The position numbers and the translations under genes are program-made. The notes beneath the pieces were generated by a model, which had not been told where the DNA came from, did not search any database, and was given only the letters and a program-made list of their open reading frames with translations. A stretch of DNA of 64,000 nt from Bacteroidota bacterium (lineage in GTDB: Bacteria > Bacteroidota > Bacteroidia > B-17B0 > Aurantibacillaceae), in assembly GCA_030684395.1 (NCBI GenBank), contig JAUXTT010000042.1, forward strand, positions 62,001-126,000, read 5' to 3'. Shown one piece after another: positions 28,085 through 45,713 of this stretch (its first letter is position 1; each line of letters begins with the position of its first letter).

Positions 28085-29575
28085 ATGCATCATACGATCG
28101 ATATAAAAAAGAAACTTACATTAAGTGATATTAAAAACATCCTTGGCAAAAATCTGAAACTAAAATTATCAGATAATGCTGTTAAGGAAATAAACAAGTG
28201 TAGAAACTATTTAGATAAAAAGCTGAAAAAGCAAAAAGAACCAATCTATGGTATCAACACAGGTTTTGGATCACTTTGTAATGTTGAGATACCCACAGAC
28301 CAAATCGAAAAATTGCAGGAGAACCTGGTTATGTCTCATGCCTGCGGGATGGGAGAAGAAGTTCCTGCGGAGATTGTTCGTTTAATGCTTTTGTTAAAGA
28401 TTCAGGCTTTCGCTTACGGGAAATCAGCTTGTCATATTGATACCGTTGAGCGGTTGGTGTTTTTATATAACAATAATATTTTCCCTGTTGTTTATCAATT
28501 AGGTTCTTTGGGTGCTTCCGGAGATCTTTCTCCATTAGCACATATGTCTTTACCACTATTAGGAAAAGGTGAAGTATATTACTTAGGTGTAAAACAGGAA
28601 ACAGAAAAAGTTTACAAACAACTAAAACTCTCTCCTTTAAAATTAAAATCCAAAGAAGGTTTGGCTTTATTGAACGGTACACAGTTTATGAGTTCTTACG
28701 GAGTTCATTGTTTGTTACGTGCTGAACGTTTGAATGAAATTGCCGATACTACAGCTTGTGTTTCTTTGGAAGCATTTGATGGCAGAATAGAACCCTTCAA
28801 AAATCATTTACATACTATTCGCCCACATGCAGGACAGATCTCTACTTCTAAATTTGTAAGAGATACTTTAAAAGATAGTGCATTGATCGAAAGAAAAAAA
28901 GAGCATGTGCAGGATCCCTACTCTTTTCGCTGTATTCCACAAGTACATGGTGCAACAAAGGATACAGTAAATTATGTAAAATCAGTTTTTGAAACGGAGA
29001 TCAACTCAGTTACTGATAATCCAACTGTTTTTCCTGAAGAAGATGAGATCTTGTCAGGAGGAAACTTTCACGGACAACCTTTAGCATTAGCTCTGGATTT
29101 CCTTTGTATTGCTTTAGCAGAATTAGGGAGTATCTCTGAACGTCGTACTTATCAGTTGATTGCGGGCTTAAGAGGCTTGCCGCCATTCCTGGTTGCGAAT
29201 CCGGGATTAAATTCAGGTTTCATGATCCCTCAATACACAGCTGCAAGTATCGTAAGTCAGAACAAACAATTGTGTACTCCCGCTTCTGTAGATAGTATTG
29301 TTTCATCAAACGGCCAAGAAGATCATGTAAGCATGGGAGCAAATGCTGCTACAAAATGTTTTCAGGTGGTTTCTAATTTAGAGCGTATCATTGCAATTGA
29401 ATTAATGAACGCATCGCAGGCATTAGAATTCAGAAGACCTTTGAAATCGTCTGCCAAGATCGAGAAATTCGTAAAAAAATTCAGAACTACTATTCCTTTT
29501 ATAAAAGAAGATAAGATCATGTATCAGGAAATGGAAGCAGCTTTGCAATTTGTAAAGAAAACAAACGTAGATTGA
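28085..29575 (+). CDS. hutH: Histidine ammonia-lyase
   Basis: 496 residues. The MIO cofactor-forming Ala-Ser-Gly triad lies in GSLGASGDLSPLAHM near residue 143. NTGFGSLCNV near residue 59, SSNGQEDHVSMGANA and the Ser-His pair in NLVMSHACGMGEE fit the histidine-specific rather than the phenylalanine or tyrosine branch of the lyase family. It converts L-histidine to trans-urocanate and ammonia. No hutU, hutI or hutG is adjacent, so any downstream pathway genes are elsewhere. It follows parC by 78 bp; that gap holds partly self-complementary CAGGTTTC/GAAACC words. Confidence 0.92.
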   Translation: MHHTIDIKKKLTLSDIKNILGKNLKLKLSDNAVKEINKCRNYLDKKLKKQKEPIYGINTGFGSLCNVEIPTDQIEKLQENLVMSHACGMGEEVPAEIVRLMLLLKIQAFAYGKSACHIDTVERLVFLYNNNIFPVVYQLGSLGASGDLSPLAHMSLPLLGKGEVYYLGVKQETEKVYKQLKLSPLKLKSKEGLALLNGTQFMSSYGVHCLLRAERLNEIADTTACVSLEAFDGRIEPFKNHLHTIRPHAGQISTSKFVRDTLKDSALIERKKEHVQDPYSFRCIPQVHGATKDTVNYVKSVFETEINSVTDNPTVFPEEDEILSGGNFHGQPLALALDFLCIALAELGSISERRTYQLIAGLRGLPPFLVANPGLNSGFMIPQYTAASIVSQNKQLCTPASVDSIVSSNGQEDHVSMGANAATKCFQVVSNLERIIAIELMNASQALEFRRPLKSSAKIEKFVKKFRTTIPFIKEDKIMYQEMEAALQFVKKTNVD

Positions 29576-29590
29576 CATTATTTAAACTAA

Positions 29591-29661
29591 TGTCAGTTCG
29601 AGCGCAGTCGAAACAGTTGAAGAGAAGCACACTGTCGTTCTCGACTGCACTCGAACTGACA
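29591..29661. repeat. Inverted pair of 21-bp repeats (TTCGAGCGCAGTCGA core)
   Basis: Arms at 29591-29611 and 29641-29661 are complementary at 20 of 21 positions, with a 29-nt spacer. Each arm contains the dispersed GAGCGNAGTCGA-type core. It lies between hutH and the TIMP-like gene and can form a long hairpin, probably terminating hutH. Confidence 0.85.
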
Positions 29662-29685: not shown

Positions 29686-30276
29686 ATGCAATTAGTAAAA
29701 TACATATTCCTGTTTCTTTTCCTGAATATGTTCTATTGCATAAGCGCTTGTAATTGTCCGCCTGCACCACGTTTAGATAAAGTATATACAAATGGATACG
29801 CCTTTATTTTTAAAGGTGCTGTAAAATCGGTTACACCGTGTAAAGAGGGAATTGCAAAATCACATTTTATTGTACAAGAATTATACAAAGGAAAAAGCCC
29901 GAAAGAAATTGATGTGTATTTTGATTGTGGTAAGGAGTGTCCGATGAATTTTAGTGCAGGTGAAACCTGGATCATTTATTCAAACTATGCTCAGGTTGGA
30001 AAGCCCGATGTGAGCCTTTGCTCGCGAAGTAGAAAGTTGGTTGATAATGAAATTCAAATACAAACAAATTTTATTCCTTCCGATTACAGCTTTCAACAGG
30101 AAGTAGAATGGTTGAGAACCAATTTAGGAACACATGAAGTATTAAAAGAAAATGCGAATGCCTTTTTATCTCACAGAAACGAATTGCCAAGTCGTTCAAA
30201 TGCATTACTTTTAATAGGAATCTCACTTGGAAGTTTGCTCCTACTCTATTTTGTTTTCAAGAAATTTATAAAATAA
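29686..30276 (+). CDS. Exported TIMP/netrin (NTR)-like protein with C-terminal membrane anchor
   Basis: 196 residues from MQLVKYIFLFLFLNMFYCIS; longer frames run back through the palindromic repeat and are rejected. After the signal peptide comes CNCPPAP, then AFIFKGAVKSV, FIVQELYKGK, a glycine-preceded aromatic stretch (AGETWIIYSNY) and a CSRSRKL motif. This order and the paired cysteines resemble the N-terminal domain of tissue inhibitors of metalloproteinases and other NTR folds, where the mature chain begins Cys-x-Cys. A C-terminal membrane helix (LLLIGISLGSLLLLYFVF) and basic tail anchor it. The function is inferred only from fold-like features. It is 6 nt upstream of the pyrophosphatase gene. 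Confidence 0.6.
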   Translation: MQLVKYIFLFLFLNMFYCISACNCPPAPRLDKVYTNGYAFIFKGAVKSVTPCKEGIAKSHFIVQELYKGKSPKEIDVYFDCGKECPMNFSAGETWIIYSNYAQVGKPDVSLCSRSRKLVDNEIQIQTNFIPSDYSFQQEVEWLRTNLGTHEVLKENANAFLSHRNELPSRSNALLLIGISLGSLLLLYFVFKKFIK

Positions 30277-30282
30277 ACACAC

Positions 30283-30921
30283 ATGAATATCCCTGTATTT
30301 AAAGCTCATCCATGGCACGGCATCGCACCCGGTAAAAATGCACCTGAAACGGTTACTGCTTACATAGAAATTGTACCTACTGATACTATCAAATACGAAA
30401 TCGATAAAGTAACAGGATTCAGAAAAGTAGACCGCCCTCAGAAATTCTCGAATATTGTCCCTGCATTGTATGGTTTTATTCCTCAAACTTATTGCGGAGA
30501 AAGTGTGGCCGAATACGCTACTACAAAAGCGAATAGGGCAACGGCAAAAGGTGATGGAGATCCATTGGATATTTTGGTTTTAACCGAACATATCATCACT
30601 ACCGGAGATATTATTATGGAAGCTAAACCAATTGGTGGTTTCCGAATGTTTGATAAAGATGAGATCGATGATAAGATCATTGCTGTAATGGCGAAAGACG
30701 AAATTTATTCCAACTACAACGACATCAGCGAAGTTCCTGAATCTATCATCAAACGATTAAAACATTACTTCCTTACTTACAAGAATATACCAGGAACAAC
30801 TGAACCTGTTTGTGAAATCACTCATACTTATGGTAAAGACGAAGCTTTTGAAGTAATTAAAAGAAGTTTATTTGATTATCAAAAAGAGATCCTGGAAAAG
30901 AACGTGATGTTCAGCAGCTAA
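30283..30921 (+). CDS. ppa: Inorganic pyrophosphatase (family I)
   Basis: 212 residues. The family I signature KGDGDPLDILVLTE carries the Asp ligands of the catalytic Mg ions; EIVPTDTIKYEIDK near residue 28, VDRPQKFS and YGFIPQTYC are substrate-binding segments. It hydrolyses pyrophosphate to two phosphates in the cytoplasm, pulling biosynthetic reactions forward. It lies 6 nt downstream of the TIMP-like gene and may be co-transcribed with it, an odd pairing of exported and cytoplasmic products. Confidence 0.93.
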   Translation: MNIPVFKAHPWHGIAPGKNAPETVTAYIEIVPTDTIKYEIDKVTGFRKVDRPQKFSNIVPALYGFIPQTYCGESVAEYATTKANRATAKGDGDPLDILVLTEHIITTGDIIMEAKPIGGFRMFDKDEIDDKIIAVMAKDEIYSNYNDISEVPESIIKRLKHYFLTYKNIPGTTEPVCEITHTYGKDEAFEVIKRSLFDYQKEILEKNVMFSS

Positions 30922-30930
30922 TAGTTTACA

Positions 30931-33900
30931 TTATCTCAATAAAGTAATTGAACCTGATCTTCTTTCTTCTCTTTCAGTATAAAAGATTATATCTACAATG
31001 TAGAAATATACCCCATCCTGAACAATTTTGTTTTTATATAAGCCATCCCAGGTATCGGTTATTTTATTCAGAACCGCAATCTCTTCTCCCCAGCGATTAA
31101 ATATTCTACAGCTGATCGATTTAATACAAGTACCGGTAATAAACCATTTCTCGTTATATATATCGCTATTAGGAGTAAAGCAATTAGGGATATAAGCCAT
31201 TTCTTCATCTATAAGTGCTTTAATTGTAAAACTGGAATCATAGATGCAACTATTATCATCTATTACACTGATAGAATAAATACCTTCATTCAAATTGGAA
31301 AATATAGTTGATGCTGTATAAGAAGTGTTGTTTAAACTAAACAGATAAGGTGCGGTTCCCCCATTCACACTAACGGTAACACTTCCTCCTTCTTCACATG
31401 TATATTCAGTTGTTATAAAAAATAAATCAGATGGGCCCGATGAGGCACTCAGCACTGTAACAGATACGTCTAATGTACATTGTTGATTATCTTTTACAAC
31501 GAGGGTATATGTTCCGGCATTAAGTGGCGAATAATAGGTAGTGCTGCTGAATCCTGAATTATTAAAGTCGTATACATATGGTGGAATTCCACCGGTGACT
31601 GATTGAATTGTGATTGACCCATTAGGTGTGCAGGTAGCATCAGTGGTTAAATAAGAAACACTGCTTGGAGACAAAGGATTACTGATAAAGACCAATGTAG
31701 TATCAAACGCACAGCCGTTTACATCTTTCACGGTTAAAGGGTAGTTTGATGGATTAAGTCCGGTATATATTGTAGCAGAAGAAAATCCAAGGTTATTGAA
31801 ATTGTATTGATAAGGCGGAACTCCACCACTAACCCCGCTTAATTCAATTGTTCCATTGGATGTATTACATGGCAATGTAGTTAATATTGTCTGCGGGATG
31901 TTGTTGTAAATGGTTATAGCAGCACTGTCCATAACAGTACAGCCTTCAGAAGTGGAAGCGACTAAATAATAGGTTGTTGTAACATTCGTTTTAACAAAAG
32001 GGTTTACACAATTCGTACAACTTAAACCTATAGAAGGAGACCATAAAAGATTTGTAAAAACTCCATTTGAAGTAAAACTTAATTGAACACTATCTCCTAA
32101 ACAAAGAGTTGCATCGTTAGCTACAGATAACGTAGGTGCCGATATCAGATAAATATGTACAATATCCGTTTGAATATTATTACATGAATCCTTAACGGTA
32201 ACCGAATAAGTACCGGGCCCAAAAGCTGTAAATGTTTGTTCTGTAGTTCCATCACTCCAATGGTATTCCTTAAATCCGGCACCGGCATCAAAGGTGTGGG
32301 TGGCAGATGCACACATGTATATATCATTACCCAGTTCGAGTGTTGGTGCTACTGTACTGATAGCTGATACTGTTACCGTATCGGTTGAATAGCATAATTT
32401 ATTGAAAGAAAAATCATCTAAACCAAAGTCATTTCCTGTTCCGGCTGTTGAAGTATTTATTACCTTAATGGTAACGCTGGTATTAAGACCTGAATTCCAT
32501 AAAGGAACCCCATACTCATCGTAAGCCCAAACACCTGTGTAAACAATCCCCTGATTTATTGCAACAACAACATCTCCGGTAACATCGCCTATAAAATGAA
32601 TCTCGAAAATAGGTTGTGAAACGTCGGAACGCGAGGCCCAGAATGAAAAAGCATAATTGGTATTACCTGCCAATGCATAAACGGTTTGTTCCCAAATTAT
32701 TGTTGGGCCTGATGTACAACCGTCCAAATGCATAAACATATTATCAGTTGTAGGTGTATGATCAGTTAGTTGTGGATAAACATTAAAGAAGCTAGGTCCA
32801 ACAAAATAATTACATGGCGCATAGGAAGTTGTGAAATTATGCCCACTTGTAAAACCAACATTTCCGGAACTGAAGTCAGGATTCACTACTAAATTTACAC
32901 CCGGTGTAGTAGCCGTTACGGTATAGCTAGTTGTTACCAATGGAGATGCAATTGGATCAGCAACAGTTGCATCATTCAGTCCGGCAGTTGGCAACCATGA
33001 ATAAGTAGTAAATCCCGAGCTCGAATTTAATTGTACGCCTCCTCCCTGGCAAACAATGGTATCATTACTTGCAACAACATTTGGGCATGCACAGCCTTCA
33101 TCTACCTGTCCGTTATTATTATCGTCAATTCCGTTTCCACAAATTTCAAGGCAGGCAGCAATACAATTAGCACTGATCAATTGAGGCTCAGGTGTTGCCC
33201 AACCGGTTGCTGCTTCAAACGTTCCGTCCAGACTATTTGCTGTTGCATCCATCACTGATGATCCTGCAGTTTGATTGCATCTGTAATACGCCAGTAAATT
33301 CTGTTCGTTTCCAGACATGCATTGATTGTATCCGTTGGCAACTTCAGCATCTGATAAAGGCCGGTTCCATATTCTAACTTCATCCATATTACCGTATAAA
33401 GGCAAAGGGCTTGCTGACCAATTATAACTCAACTCAGTTGGAATAATTCTAGTGATAGGCGGAGTCGTAACACTTTTTGTGTCAACCAAAACACCATTCA
33501 CAAATAGTTTGGATTGTTGTGTTGTATAATTCATTACCCCGGCAGCATGGTACCAGGTTCCTATAATAAATCCACCAAGTGGTGAATAGCTGCAACTGGG
33601 TGCAGATGGCATAGTACTATTGGGCCCATCAACTCTAAAAACAAGTTTAGTAACCGGTTCATTAAAAAAACCTCCCTGCCACCCAAATCCCAACCACTGA
33701 TCTTCAAAAACAACACCATCAACAGATGCAATCAGTACACGTGGGGCACTTCCAAACGGTTGGTTTAATTTAAACCAGCACTCCCAGGTATAACCTCCAT
33801 TATCACCACTGTAGTATTGATTATTTAAAGGTAAAGCAACCGCAGGATTATCAATATCAAATAACAATGAGCCTCCGCAAGCTGCAACAACCGGTTCCGA

Positions 33901-35136
33901 AACAATAATTTTTACAGAATCAATATCGTTTGTACACATAGCTAAATTTCCGCTGTTCGCTTTAAATTTCATCCAATAAGTGCCGGCTGTGTTAAATGTA
34001 TAAGATGTACTTAAGTTTGTTGAGAGAATAGTTGAAGGCGCCAAATACCATTGGTTGGAAACAGAATTTGTTGCTGTACCGGTAAAGTTAAGTGTTGTTC
34101 CGGTTGTTATATTATTTACTGCTGCCGGTGATGTGATAGTTGCTATAACCGGATTAGGGCAAGGTGTGTTACAACTTAAACATCCAAGCAAACTGCTACG
34201 GGTTGTAGTAAGAAAAAACTCCATACGGCTGTATTGCCCAGGAGTGAATTGATTGTAGCAACTAAAATTACTATAATCCATATAATCTTCACCAAGATCT
34301 GCAACATCTGTTGTAAACGGATTGTTGGTACTTAGATCATCGGCATCTGTACTGCAAGAATTGCTCGATGGATTACAGGATGCAAATGTTGTTTGATCGG
34401 GTGGAGTGTCACATACTTTATCACCGTCTTGTAAACAGTCACTATTGCTGCATCCATTTTGAAATGTATGATACAGTCCAAGATAATGTCCAACTTCATG
34501 GGTGCCAACGGCATCGTTTGCTACACTGGTTCCAAAATAATCAGCTTCAATTACAATTCCATCCATATTAAGACCGGCTGCTGAAGGGAAATACGCATAT
34601 CCAACAACACCCGAACCCGAACTTTGGCTCAGGATCTCTTTCACTATCCAAATATTAAGATAACAAGTGGGTGGCCAACGATTAATATCTTTTAATGCAA
34701 TATCATCCACCTCCATTGTTTCTGTAGTTAATGGAGACGTATTCCTTGTTATACCTGTTGTTGCATTTCCATTTGGATCGCGCTGAGCTAAACAAAACTG
34801 AATCTGATAATTATTACTTAAAGCAAAGTTTGCATTTAAATGCGCAATGGCAGTTTGTACCTGTGCATCACTGATATTTTCGGGACCGCTATTATGAATA
34901 ATATGAACCACAACTGGAATATTAGCAATTGAATTAATGCCTCTTTGAGTTGATAAACTTCCTTTCGAAAAATATTTATACGCTTCATTGTCCAATAAAT
35001 TTTGAACCTTATTTAACGCTTCATTTTTTTTTAAAAGTTCGCCACTGGCACAACCTGTAAATACTTCAGTTTTTTCAACCTGAGAAAATACTTTAGTTGC
35101 GATCAGTAAAAAAAAGATGATACTATTTCTTAGCAT
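30931..35136 (-). CDS. Secreted pappalysin-like metalloprotease with LamG, SprB repeats and T9SS type B sorting domain
   Basis: 1401 residues with a signal peptide. The catalytic domain (about 65-320) is peptidase M43: zinc motif HEVGHYLGLYH near residue 213 (HExxHxxGxxH) and Met-turn DYMDYSNFSCYNQF. A PKD-like segment follows, then a LamG/concanavalin domain (about 430-640), a MopE-like motif CGNGIDDNNNGQVDEGC near residue 670, a jelly-roll region, Ig-like parts and three SprB-type repeats (about 1090-1300; for example GGIPPYVYDFNNSGF). The last ~90 residues are a CHU_C/gliding-associated domain (PNCFTPNSDIYNEKWF to VYFYIVDIIFYTER), the type B T9SS signal. It should be exported through T9SS and act on the surface or outside. 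Confidence 0.93.
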   Translation of the reverse strand: MLRNSIIFFLLIATKVFSQVEKTEVFTGCASGELLKKNEALNKVQNLLDNEAYKYFSKGSLSTQRGINSIANIPVVVHIIHNSGPENISDAQVQTAIAHLNANFALSNNYQIQFCLAQRDPNGNATTGITRNTSPLTTETMEVDDIALKDINRWPPTCYLNIWIVKEILSQSSGSGVVGYAYFPSAAGLNMDGIVIEADYFGTSVANDAVGTHEVGHYLGLYHTFQNGCSNSDCLQDGDKVCDTPPDQTTFASCNPSSNSCSTDADDLSTNNPFTTDVADLGEDYMDYSNFSCYNQFTPGQYSRMEFFLTTTRSSLLGCLSCNTPCPNPVIATITSPAAVNNITTGTTLNFTGTATNSVSNQWYLAPSTILSTNLSTSYTFNTAGTYWMKFKANSGNLAMCTNDIDSVKIIVSEPVVAACGGSLLFDIDNPAVALPLNNQYYSGDNGGYTWECWFKLNQPFGSAPRVLIASVDGVVFEDQWLGFGWQGGFFNEPVTKLVFRVDGPNSTMPSAPSCSYSPLGGFIIGTWYHAAGVMNYTTQQSKLFVNGVLVDTKSVTTPPITRIIPTELSYNWSASPLPLYGNMDEVRIWNRPLSDAEVANGYNQCMSGNEQNLLAYYRCNQTAGSSVMDATANSLDGTFEAATGWATPEPQLISANCIAACLEICGNGIDDNNNGQVDEGCACPNVVASNDTIVCQGGGVQLNSSSGFTTYSWLPTAGLNDATVADPIASPLVTTSYTVTATTPGVNLVVNPDFSSGNVGFTSGHNFTTSYAPCNYFVGPSFFNVYPQLTDHTPTTDNMFMHLDGCTSGPTIIWEQTVYALAGNTNYAFSFWASRSDVSQPIFEIHFIGDVTGDVVVAINQGIVYTGVWAYDEYGVPLWNSGLNTSVTIKVINTSTAGTGNDFGLDDFSFNKLCYSTDTVTVSAISTVAPTLELGNDIYMCASATHTFDAGAGFKEYHWSDGTTEQTFTAFGPGTYSVTVKDSCNNIQTDIVHIYLISAPTLSVANDATLCLGDSVQLSFTSNGVFTNLLWSPSIGLSCTNCVNPFVKTNVTTTYYLVASTSEGCTVMDSAAITIYNNIPQTILTTLPCNTSNGTIELSGVSGGVPPYQYNFNNLGFSSATIYTGLNPSNYPLTVKDVNGCAFDTTLVFISNPLSPSSVSYLTTDATCTPNGSITIQSVTGGIPPYVYDFNNSGFSSTTYYSPLNAGTYTLVVKDNQQCTLDVSVTVLSASSGPSDLFFITTEYTCEEGGSVTVSVNGGTAPYLFSLNNTSYTASTIFSNLNEGIYSISVIDDNSCIYDSSFTIKALIDEEMAYIPNCFTPNSDIYNEKWFITGTCIKSISCRIFNRWGEEIAVLNKITDTWDGLYKNKIVQDGVYFYIVDIIFYTEREERRSGSITLLR

Positions 35137-42455: not shown

Positions 42456-42474
42456 TTAATACCAAATAAGTCAG

Positions 42475-42492
42475 GTCGAGCGTATTCGAGAC
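42475..42492. repeat. Dispersed covarying-arm hairpin after murQ (core GAGCGTATTCGA)
   Basis: Arms GTC (42475-42477) and GAC (42490-42492) flank core GAGCGTATTCGA (42478-42489). Confidence 0.6.
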
Positions 42493-45570: not shown

Positions 45571-45713
45571 AAAAACGAGGCTGTCTCAAAAGTCATTTTT
45601 CTTCCCAAATGTCACTTCGAGCGAAGTCGAGAAGTGTTGATTATCAGAGTGCCTGGTTCTCGACTTCGCTCGAACTGACACTCATAGTGGACTTTTGAGA
45701 CAACCTCGTTTTT
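45571..45713. repeat. 143-bp nested double palindrome after the OmpA gene
   Basis: Outer arms 45571-45594 and 45690-45713 match at 23 of 24 positions and contain GAGGCTGTCTCAAAAGTC. Inner arms 45610-45633 and 45657-45680 match at 23 of 24 and contain the TCGAGCGAAGTCGA core. The right outer arm ends in a run of T, so it can serve as terminator for the plus-strand gene. The rest of the ~380-bp gap to 45931 shows no gene. Confidence 0.9.

Follow-up and report, generated by a model that had tools for sequence, protein, structure and literature searches.

Does a small exported protein of a Bacteroidota bacterium, encoded close to a metallopeptidase gene, belong with the animal tissue inhibitors of metalloproteinases (TIMPs), and could it act as one? 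The question is raised by one open reading frame (ORF) in the window, by which we mean the whole stretch of 64,000 nucleotides that was analysed. From a handful of short motifs a first-pass annotation had proposed that this ORF encodes a membrane-anchored protein of the TIMP/NTR type, and it had speculated about a pairing with the nearby M43 peptidase. The features of the locus are as follows.

28085..29575, + strand: aromatic lyase gene (Pfam Lyase_aromatic, PF00221, E 2.2e-187), which we take to be of the histidine-ammonia-lyase type
29686..30276, + strand: TIMP/NTR-like protein, predicted to be membrane-anchored; 196 amino acids, ATG start
29686..29748, + strand: signal peptide predicted from the sequence, residues 1–21, with the predicted cut just before Cys22 (mature Cys1)
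29749..30129, + strand: predicted TIMP/NTR-like OB domain, mature residues 1–127 (AlphaFold2; VIA range 1–127)
30193..30273, + strand: predicted C-terminal transmembrane helix with a Lys-rich end, mature residues 149–175 (helix 149–174 in the model)
30283..30921, + strand: inorganic pyrophosphatase (Pfam PF00719, E 3.8e-43)
30931..35136, − strand: M43 metallopeptidase with a type IX sorting domain (Peptidase_M43, Laminin_G_3, SprB and CHU_C matches)

The five motifs on which the annotation was based (CNCPPAP, AFIFKGAV, VQELYKG, AGETWIIY and CSRSRKL) are all present in the ORF, and conserved residues fall in each of these stretches in alignment A1, which contains 33 close members of the family. 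Cys22, Cys24, Gly69, Cys85, Gly92, Trp95, Ile97, Tyr98, Cys112 and Arg116 are invariant in the 33 rows, as are Glu139, Leu143, Asn165 and Pro168, and Phe42 and Gly44 are nearly so. A wider set of 94 distinct members (E ≤ 1e-15, including the sister protein L156) was compiled for the cysteines, and 92 of these have the C-x-C motif. The proposed anchoring by a C-terminal helix agrees with these data: 90 of 92 members end in a hydrophobic 19-mer that scores over 1.6, the exceptions being L156 and L003 (the latter stops at a contig end), and the model of the window protein contains the corresponding helix. Lys or Arg occurs within the last six residues of 90 of the 92 members, and the helix is preceded by an N-x-x-P linker (Asn in 72 and Pro in 82 of 92). 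The combination of a signal peptide with a C-terminal hydrophobic segment suggests a periplasmic domain that is held by the inner membrane.

The mature window protein was modelled with AlphaFold2 using alignment A2, which contains 48 sequences of the window family. The best of five models has a mean pLDDT of 83.9 and a pTM of 0.71 (the five span pLDDT values of 81.6–83.9), with lower confidence near residues 81–90 (64) and 101–110 (59). Strands are formed by residues 19–28, 35–47, 53–59 and 73–78, and a C-terminal helix by residues 149–174. Foldseek against the PDB returned 17 matches at E ≤ 1e-3, all of which are TIMPs, the PCOLCE NTR domain, agrin NtA or complement chains of the C3, C4 and C5 type including cobra venom factor; ordered by E-value, complement C3b chains come first, followed by PCOLCE NTR, agrin NtA, C5 and the TIMPs. 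In VIA, N-TIMP-3 ranks top with a Z-score of 10.3 (r.m.s.d. of 2.6 over 108 residues), followed by N-TIMP-1 with a Z-score of 10.0 (2.9 over 109 residues). In both of these alignments residue 1 of the model falls on residue 1 of the chain (PDB entry 3ma2 is numbered from 301). The best 50 rows are all TIMPs, NTR/NtA modules or complement chains. Structure prediction and fold comparison, as far as a model can tell, thus bear out the TIMP/NTR-like fold that had been proposed. The fold alone singles out no inhibitor, since complement chains rank above the TIMPs in Foldseek and C5, with a Z-score of 9.6, ties with them in VIA (within 1 Z).

Direct sequence searches gave a different outcome for the window protein and for its more distant relatives. 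A Pfam scan of the window protein found neither TIMP nor NTR (no TIMP match at E ≤ 10), and PDB sequence searches with the protein and with the A1 profile gave no useful match. Pfam TIMP is absent among the families listed for the 33 close members, one of which matches NTR at E 0.8. Searched against genomes, Pfam TIMP exceeds its cut-off in one of 149, and it has no match in the genome that contains the window. The connection to TIMPs comes through sister domains, which are weaker, diverged A1 matches in other Bacteroidia; 20 such regions were examined and 19 had an ORF match. Alignment A3 contains these 19 sister proteins together with the window protein (20 in total), and A4 contains 16 sisters, leaving out the window protein and the long-tailed L156, L160 and L171. 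One sister, L161:4767-5171 (the same place as L126), is found by the window family profile at E 2.1e-11 and passes Pfam TIMP (E 9e-9, 35.8 bits, cut-off 23.1). At E ≤ 1, TIMP and NTR each match four of the 20 A3 members and NtA matches two. A PDB search with A4 returned, at E < 1e-3, 15 distinct chain sequences that are exclusively TIMP-1, TIMP-2 or TIMP-3 (best E 1.5e-8), with alignments that begin at TIMP residue 1. The window family in turn aligns to the sisters (A2 against A4, hhalign 99.3%). After removal of the window protein, the A3 profile scores the window domain, taken with most of the signal peptide and tail cut off, at 68.3 bits versus at most 9.8 for 2000 shuffles. These last three results form a two-step chain that argues for homology, more than a likeness of motifs. 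The kinship suspected in the first-pass annotation is therefore best described as well-supported transitive homology via bacterial sister domains, together with the cysteine pattern described below.

Some other matches were set aside. DUF4131 matches weakly in ten of the 33 close members (best E 5.9e-4) and, in three of six members scanned singly, covers approximately residues 5–108 at 13–17 bits versus a cut-off of 31.6. NCBIfam models run on A3 returned 15 families, each in one of the 20 members, which we take as chance: an adhesin model reaches 1.7e-5 and the rest are at 0.005 or weaker, including two toxin-subunit models (E 0.04 and 0.07). The sister TIMP-like domains L156:241-1014, L160:5055-6197 and L171:3573-5018 have long C-terminal extensions. 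MORN_2 repeats match three of the 20 A3 members, and from length and repeats our guess is that these are the same three proteins.

TIMP disulfides are numbered C1–C70 and C3–C99. In the window family Cys1, Cys3, Cys64 and Cys91 (mature numbering) occur in 92 of 92 rows, all of which were selected for C-x-C, and the pairs Cys1/Cys64 and Cys3/Cys91 match the two TIMP disulfides in order and context. We predict from the sequences that they form disulfides in the TIMP pattern. C-x-C is missing from two members of different taxonomic families, L120 (genome G246, family f21) and L149 (genome G294, family f12). In these Cys1 is lost (to Tyr and Val) and Cys64 is lost as well (to Ser and Gly), while Cys3 and Cys91 are retained in the alignment as read by eye. 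That both cysteines disappeared together in two lineages is a good argument for a C1–C64 bond. Of the 92 rows, 62 have both Cys31 (counted within one column) and Cys60, 27 have neither and three have just one of the two, which makes it probable that they are a pair private to this group; L120 has Cys60 and no Cys31. In 51 of 92 members, though not in the window protein, an extra cysteine lies near position 14, and no clear partner for it is apparent. Canonical TIMPs have a third disulfide in the N-domain, C13–C124, and a C-terminal domain with six cysteines. Cysteines for neither were found in the window protein, which has a membrane helix instead.

The mature N-terminus is of particular concern for function. 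Ala precedes Cys1 in 75 of 92 members, and in 82 the site ahead of Cys1 is compatible with signal peptidase I (−3/−1 rule), whereas a strict lipobox ([LVI][ASTVIG][GAS]C) fits six, with the ISAC of the window protein among them. The family pattern and the C1–C64 pairing favour signal peptidase I as the predicted processing enzyme. L046 and L047 probably have residues ahead of Cys1. Residue 2 is Gln in 48, Asp in 21 and Glu in ten of 92 members, and Asn in the window protein.

The window protein as a query finds one match in its own genome, and of the 87 genomes in its taxonomic family 81 have a homologue, with one match each; the order-level search covered the same 87 genomes and added nothing. 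At E ≤ 0.01 the A1 profile has matches in 74 of the 295 class genomes searched, spread over 42 of 156 genera, and 50 of these 74 genomes have strong members (E ≤ 1e-20). The one-copy count is valid for the close family only, since a few genomes, for example G051 and G226, contain a second, more diverged domain. In a sample of the phylum 11 of 148 genomes match, the sole strong match being the genome of the window itself. The weak matches are in six further genomes of the class and in four outside it, where the alignment covers part of the profile only. At G162:C6:74960-75538, beside a lyase gene, a strong family match (E 8.0e-40) contains one internal TAA stop, which may mean a copy in decay or an error of sequencing.

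The genes around these loci are in part conserved. A lyase gene lies directly upstream on the same strand at 63 of 89 loci with enough flank, the pyrophosphatase gene lies directly downstream at 34 of 88 and a gene that we take from its sequence to be hisS-like lies within 3.5 kb upstream at 36 of 62. Lyase, pyrophosphatase and hisS-like genes are the conserved neighbours that were identified, and no protease gene was seen in such a position. The TIMP-like gene is co-inherited with the lyase gene and perhaps co-transcribed with it. Although the lyase is the most conserved of the neighbours found, the idea that the two genes are linked in function was set aside, as five of the 50 strong-member genomes (G097, G177, G195, G209 and G268) have no lyase match. 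These lyase-free genomes and the upstream hisS-like gene suggest that the lyase linkage may be inherited gene order. The lyase match in the genome of L161 is on another contig.

Individual loci in family f12 depart from this arrangement. At L148 and L149 (genus g61) an ORF of 960 or 952 amino acids and one of 244 amino acids, presumably response-regulator-like, adjoin the family member in place of the lyase. L138 and L139 (genus g21) are members that are retained in genomes without a lyase match, and the genes upstream of L138 (for L139 judged by ORF size) appear to us to resemble those for a pterin synthase, FolE and FabD.

In the window itself a palindromic repeat with arms GTCAGTTCGAGCGCAGTCGA occupies positions 29592–29660, between the lyase gene and the TIMP-like ORF, with further copies at 42470–42489 and 45611–45679. 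Its arms give five matches in the window at up to three mismatches versus none expected, its core has 18 exact matches in the genome versus none for the reversed pattern and its RNA fold has a z-score of −6.4. It resembles a dispersed element of the REP kind.

Taken together, the TIMP/NTR fold in the model, the homology via the sisters, the two cysteine pairs, the signal peptide and the C-terminal hydrophobic helix were all obtained by computation, and with considerable confidence we identify the window protein as a membrane-anchored bacterial homologue of the TIMP N-terminal (NTR) domain, identity and topology being judged jointly. As to its action, signal peptidase I would cut before Cys1 and the domain would be oxidised in the periplasm, where the inner membrane would retain it, a short Lys tail lying in the cytoplasm. 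The free N-terminal Cys1 and the disulfide ridge may then enter the zinc site of a metallopeptidase, blocking the enzyme. The periplasm would thereby be guarded against exported metallopeptidases of the cell itself, and the target would not specifically be the adjacent M43. We consider this blocking of a metallopeptidase by Cys1 to be plausible, with the balance tilting somewhat against it. In TIMPs residue 2 is Thr or Ser and enters the S1′ pocket; the presence of Gln, Asp or Glu at this position in 79 of 92 members speaks against the inhibitor reading. The wider proposal, in which a zinc-chelating inhibitor of the TIMP type is a vertically kept core gene and acts as a tethered periplasmic guard in one large group of Bacteroidia, is more doubtful still.

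The strongest competitor of the inhibitor step has the same anatomy and leaves the identity untouched: the domain may be a non-inhibitory NTR module that binds another periplasmic protein or a ligand, with the Cys1 end serving a structural role only. It would account for the tie in VIA and Foldseek between TIMPs and C345C, PCOLCE NTR and NtA, and for strong conservation far from the N-terminus (Trp74 in 92, Arg95 in 91 and Glu118 in 89 of 92 members, as well as linker residues Asn144 in 72 and Pro147 in 82). Members without Cys1 persist, and the conserved neighbours that were identified are non-proteases. On the other hand, if its role were purely structural, there would be no need for C-x-C to follow a site resembling that of signal peptidase I, as it does in 82 of 92 members, and in the PDB the sister profile matches TIMPs by sequence and not other NTR modules. 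We give this explanation an even chance; as a class it is more likely than the inhibitor step, but it comes without a specific mechanism.

The pairing suggested in the first-pass annotation, in which the protein would be an inhibitor dedicated to the adjacent M43 peptidase, is in our view very improbable. The peptidase gene is indeed present on the opposite strand 0.65 kb away; the gap is, however, filled by the pyrophosphatase gene, which the annotation did not mention. M43 adjoins the family gene, with the pyrophosphatase gene in between, in the window and in one relative of the same genus only (L031/L051, a single genome), and this comparison of neighbourhoods gives the pairing no support. 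Seven of the 41 loci flanked by 6 kb or more on both sides have a metzincin motif: next door in the window and L051, 7–9 kb upstream in four and 10 kb downstream in one. The five distant proteins are 29–36% identical to the M43 of the window. The other 34 loci have no metzincin motif in the stretch examined, and none was seen in 20 sister-domain loci. A conserved adjacent metzincin gene, as in the mtz-tim pair of Listeria, is thus found at two of 41 family loci and at none of the 20 sister loci. M43 matches accompany the family in 50 of 50 strong-member genomes (E ≤ 1e-20) versus 220 of 245 others, but the M43-free genomes listed are mostly in a few families (f33, f36, f41, f45 and f54), so that these 50 are not independent evidence. 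Co-occurrence says little when M43 matches are this widespread (270 of the 295 class genomes have them, and the genome of the window has 11), and G311 has a sister domain and no M43 match.

Slightly less probable again is a lipoprotein, in which signal peptidase II lipidates Cys22, making Cys1 unable to act as that of TIMPs does and the N-terminal resemblance accidental: ISAC fits the lipobox, but few other members share this fit while most have a signal peptidase I site, the C-terminal helix is already an anchor, and Cys1 and Cys64, being lost together, are probably paired.

Our preferred identification, a membrane-anchored homologue of the TIMP N-terminal domain, connects with what has been described. 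That some bacterial proteins lie within the reach of Pfam TIMP is already known, L161 being an example. The window protein is named by no model in Pfam or NCBIfam, and among the papers listed in a search of open-licence literature, mostly at title level, none was seen to name the family; the lyase-linked branch of TIMP/NTR domains with a membrane helix as an anchor appears to be new. Sequence profiles link bacterial proteins to animal TIMPs at E ∼1e-8, and one branch with the TIMP cysteine pattern is present in nearly every genome (81 of 87) of its taxonomic family. Together these findings make it possible to test whether bacteria use inhibition of the TIMP type and where the TIMP domain arose. 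Were the inhibitor reading true, the inhibitory fold of TIMPs would be older than animals or would have been transferred between bacteria and animals.

With the N-terminal domains of animal TIMP-1, TIMP-2 and TIMP-3 (PF00965) the window protein shares the modelled NTR/OB fold, a predicted C-x-C start of the mature chain, two equivalent cysteine pairs and sequence kinship via the bacterial sisters. It differs in that it has a membrane helix and lacks the TIMP C-terminal domain, and for this reason it is not a canonical TIMP; its group also lacks the C13–C124 pair, has its own C31–C60 pair and mostly has Gln, Asp or Glu as residue 2. Since these parts of the TIMP definition fail, we regard it as a variant within the TIMP/NTR superfamily and not as a TIMP. 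The soluble bacterial protein L161:4767-5171 (135 amino acids) has the same domain; unlike the window protein, it has no membrane helix as judged by eye and lies above the Pfam TIMP cut-off. Complement C345C, PCOLCE NTR and agrin NtA have the same fold as the model, with Z-scores of 7.9 to 9.6 among the matches listed, but are parts of large secreted animal proteins and, to our knowledge, are not led by a free Cys1. Listeria Tim is reported to be a TIMP-like lipoprotein whose gene adjoins that of a metzincin on a phage-like locus, and the metzincin cleaves it; its likeness to TIMP is structural and not of sequence, with a Phyre2 confidence of ∼60% (PMC8235301). Compared by that description, both proteins are bacterial, exported, membrane-attached and TIMP-like, but Tim is a lipoprotein beside a metzincin, whereas the window protein is predicted to be helix-anchored and is without a conserved metzincin neighbour. 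The same account describes AprI as a periplasmic inhibitor of Pseudomonas alkaline protease and states that AprI and TIMPs contact metzincins similarly (PMC8235301); the title of its reference 52 has the N-terminal amine of AprI binding zinc. If the window protein is inhibitory, it would by analogy be a similar guard of the periplasm.
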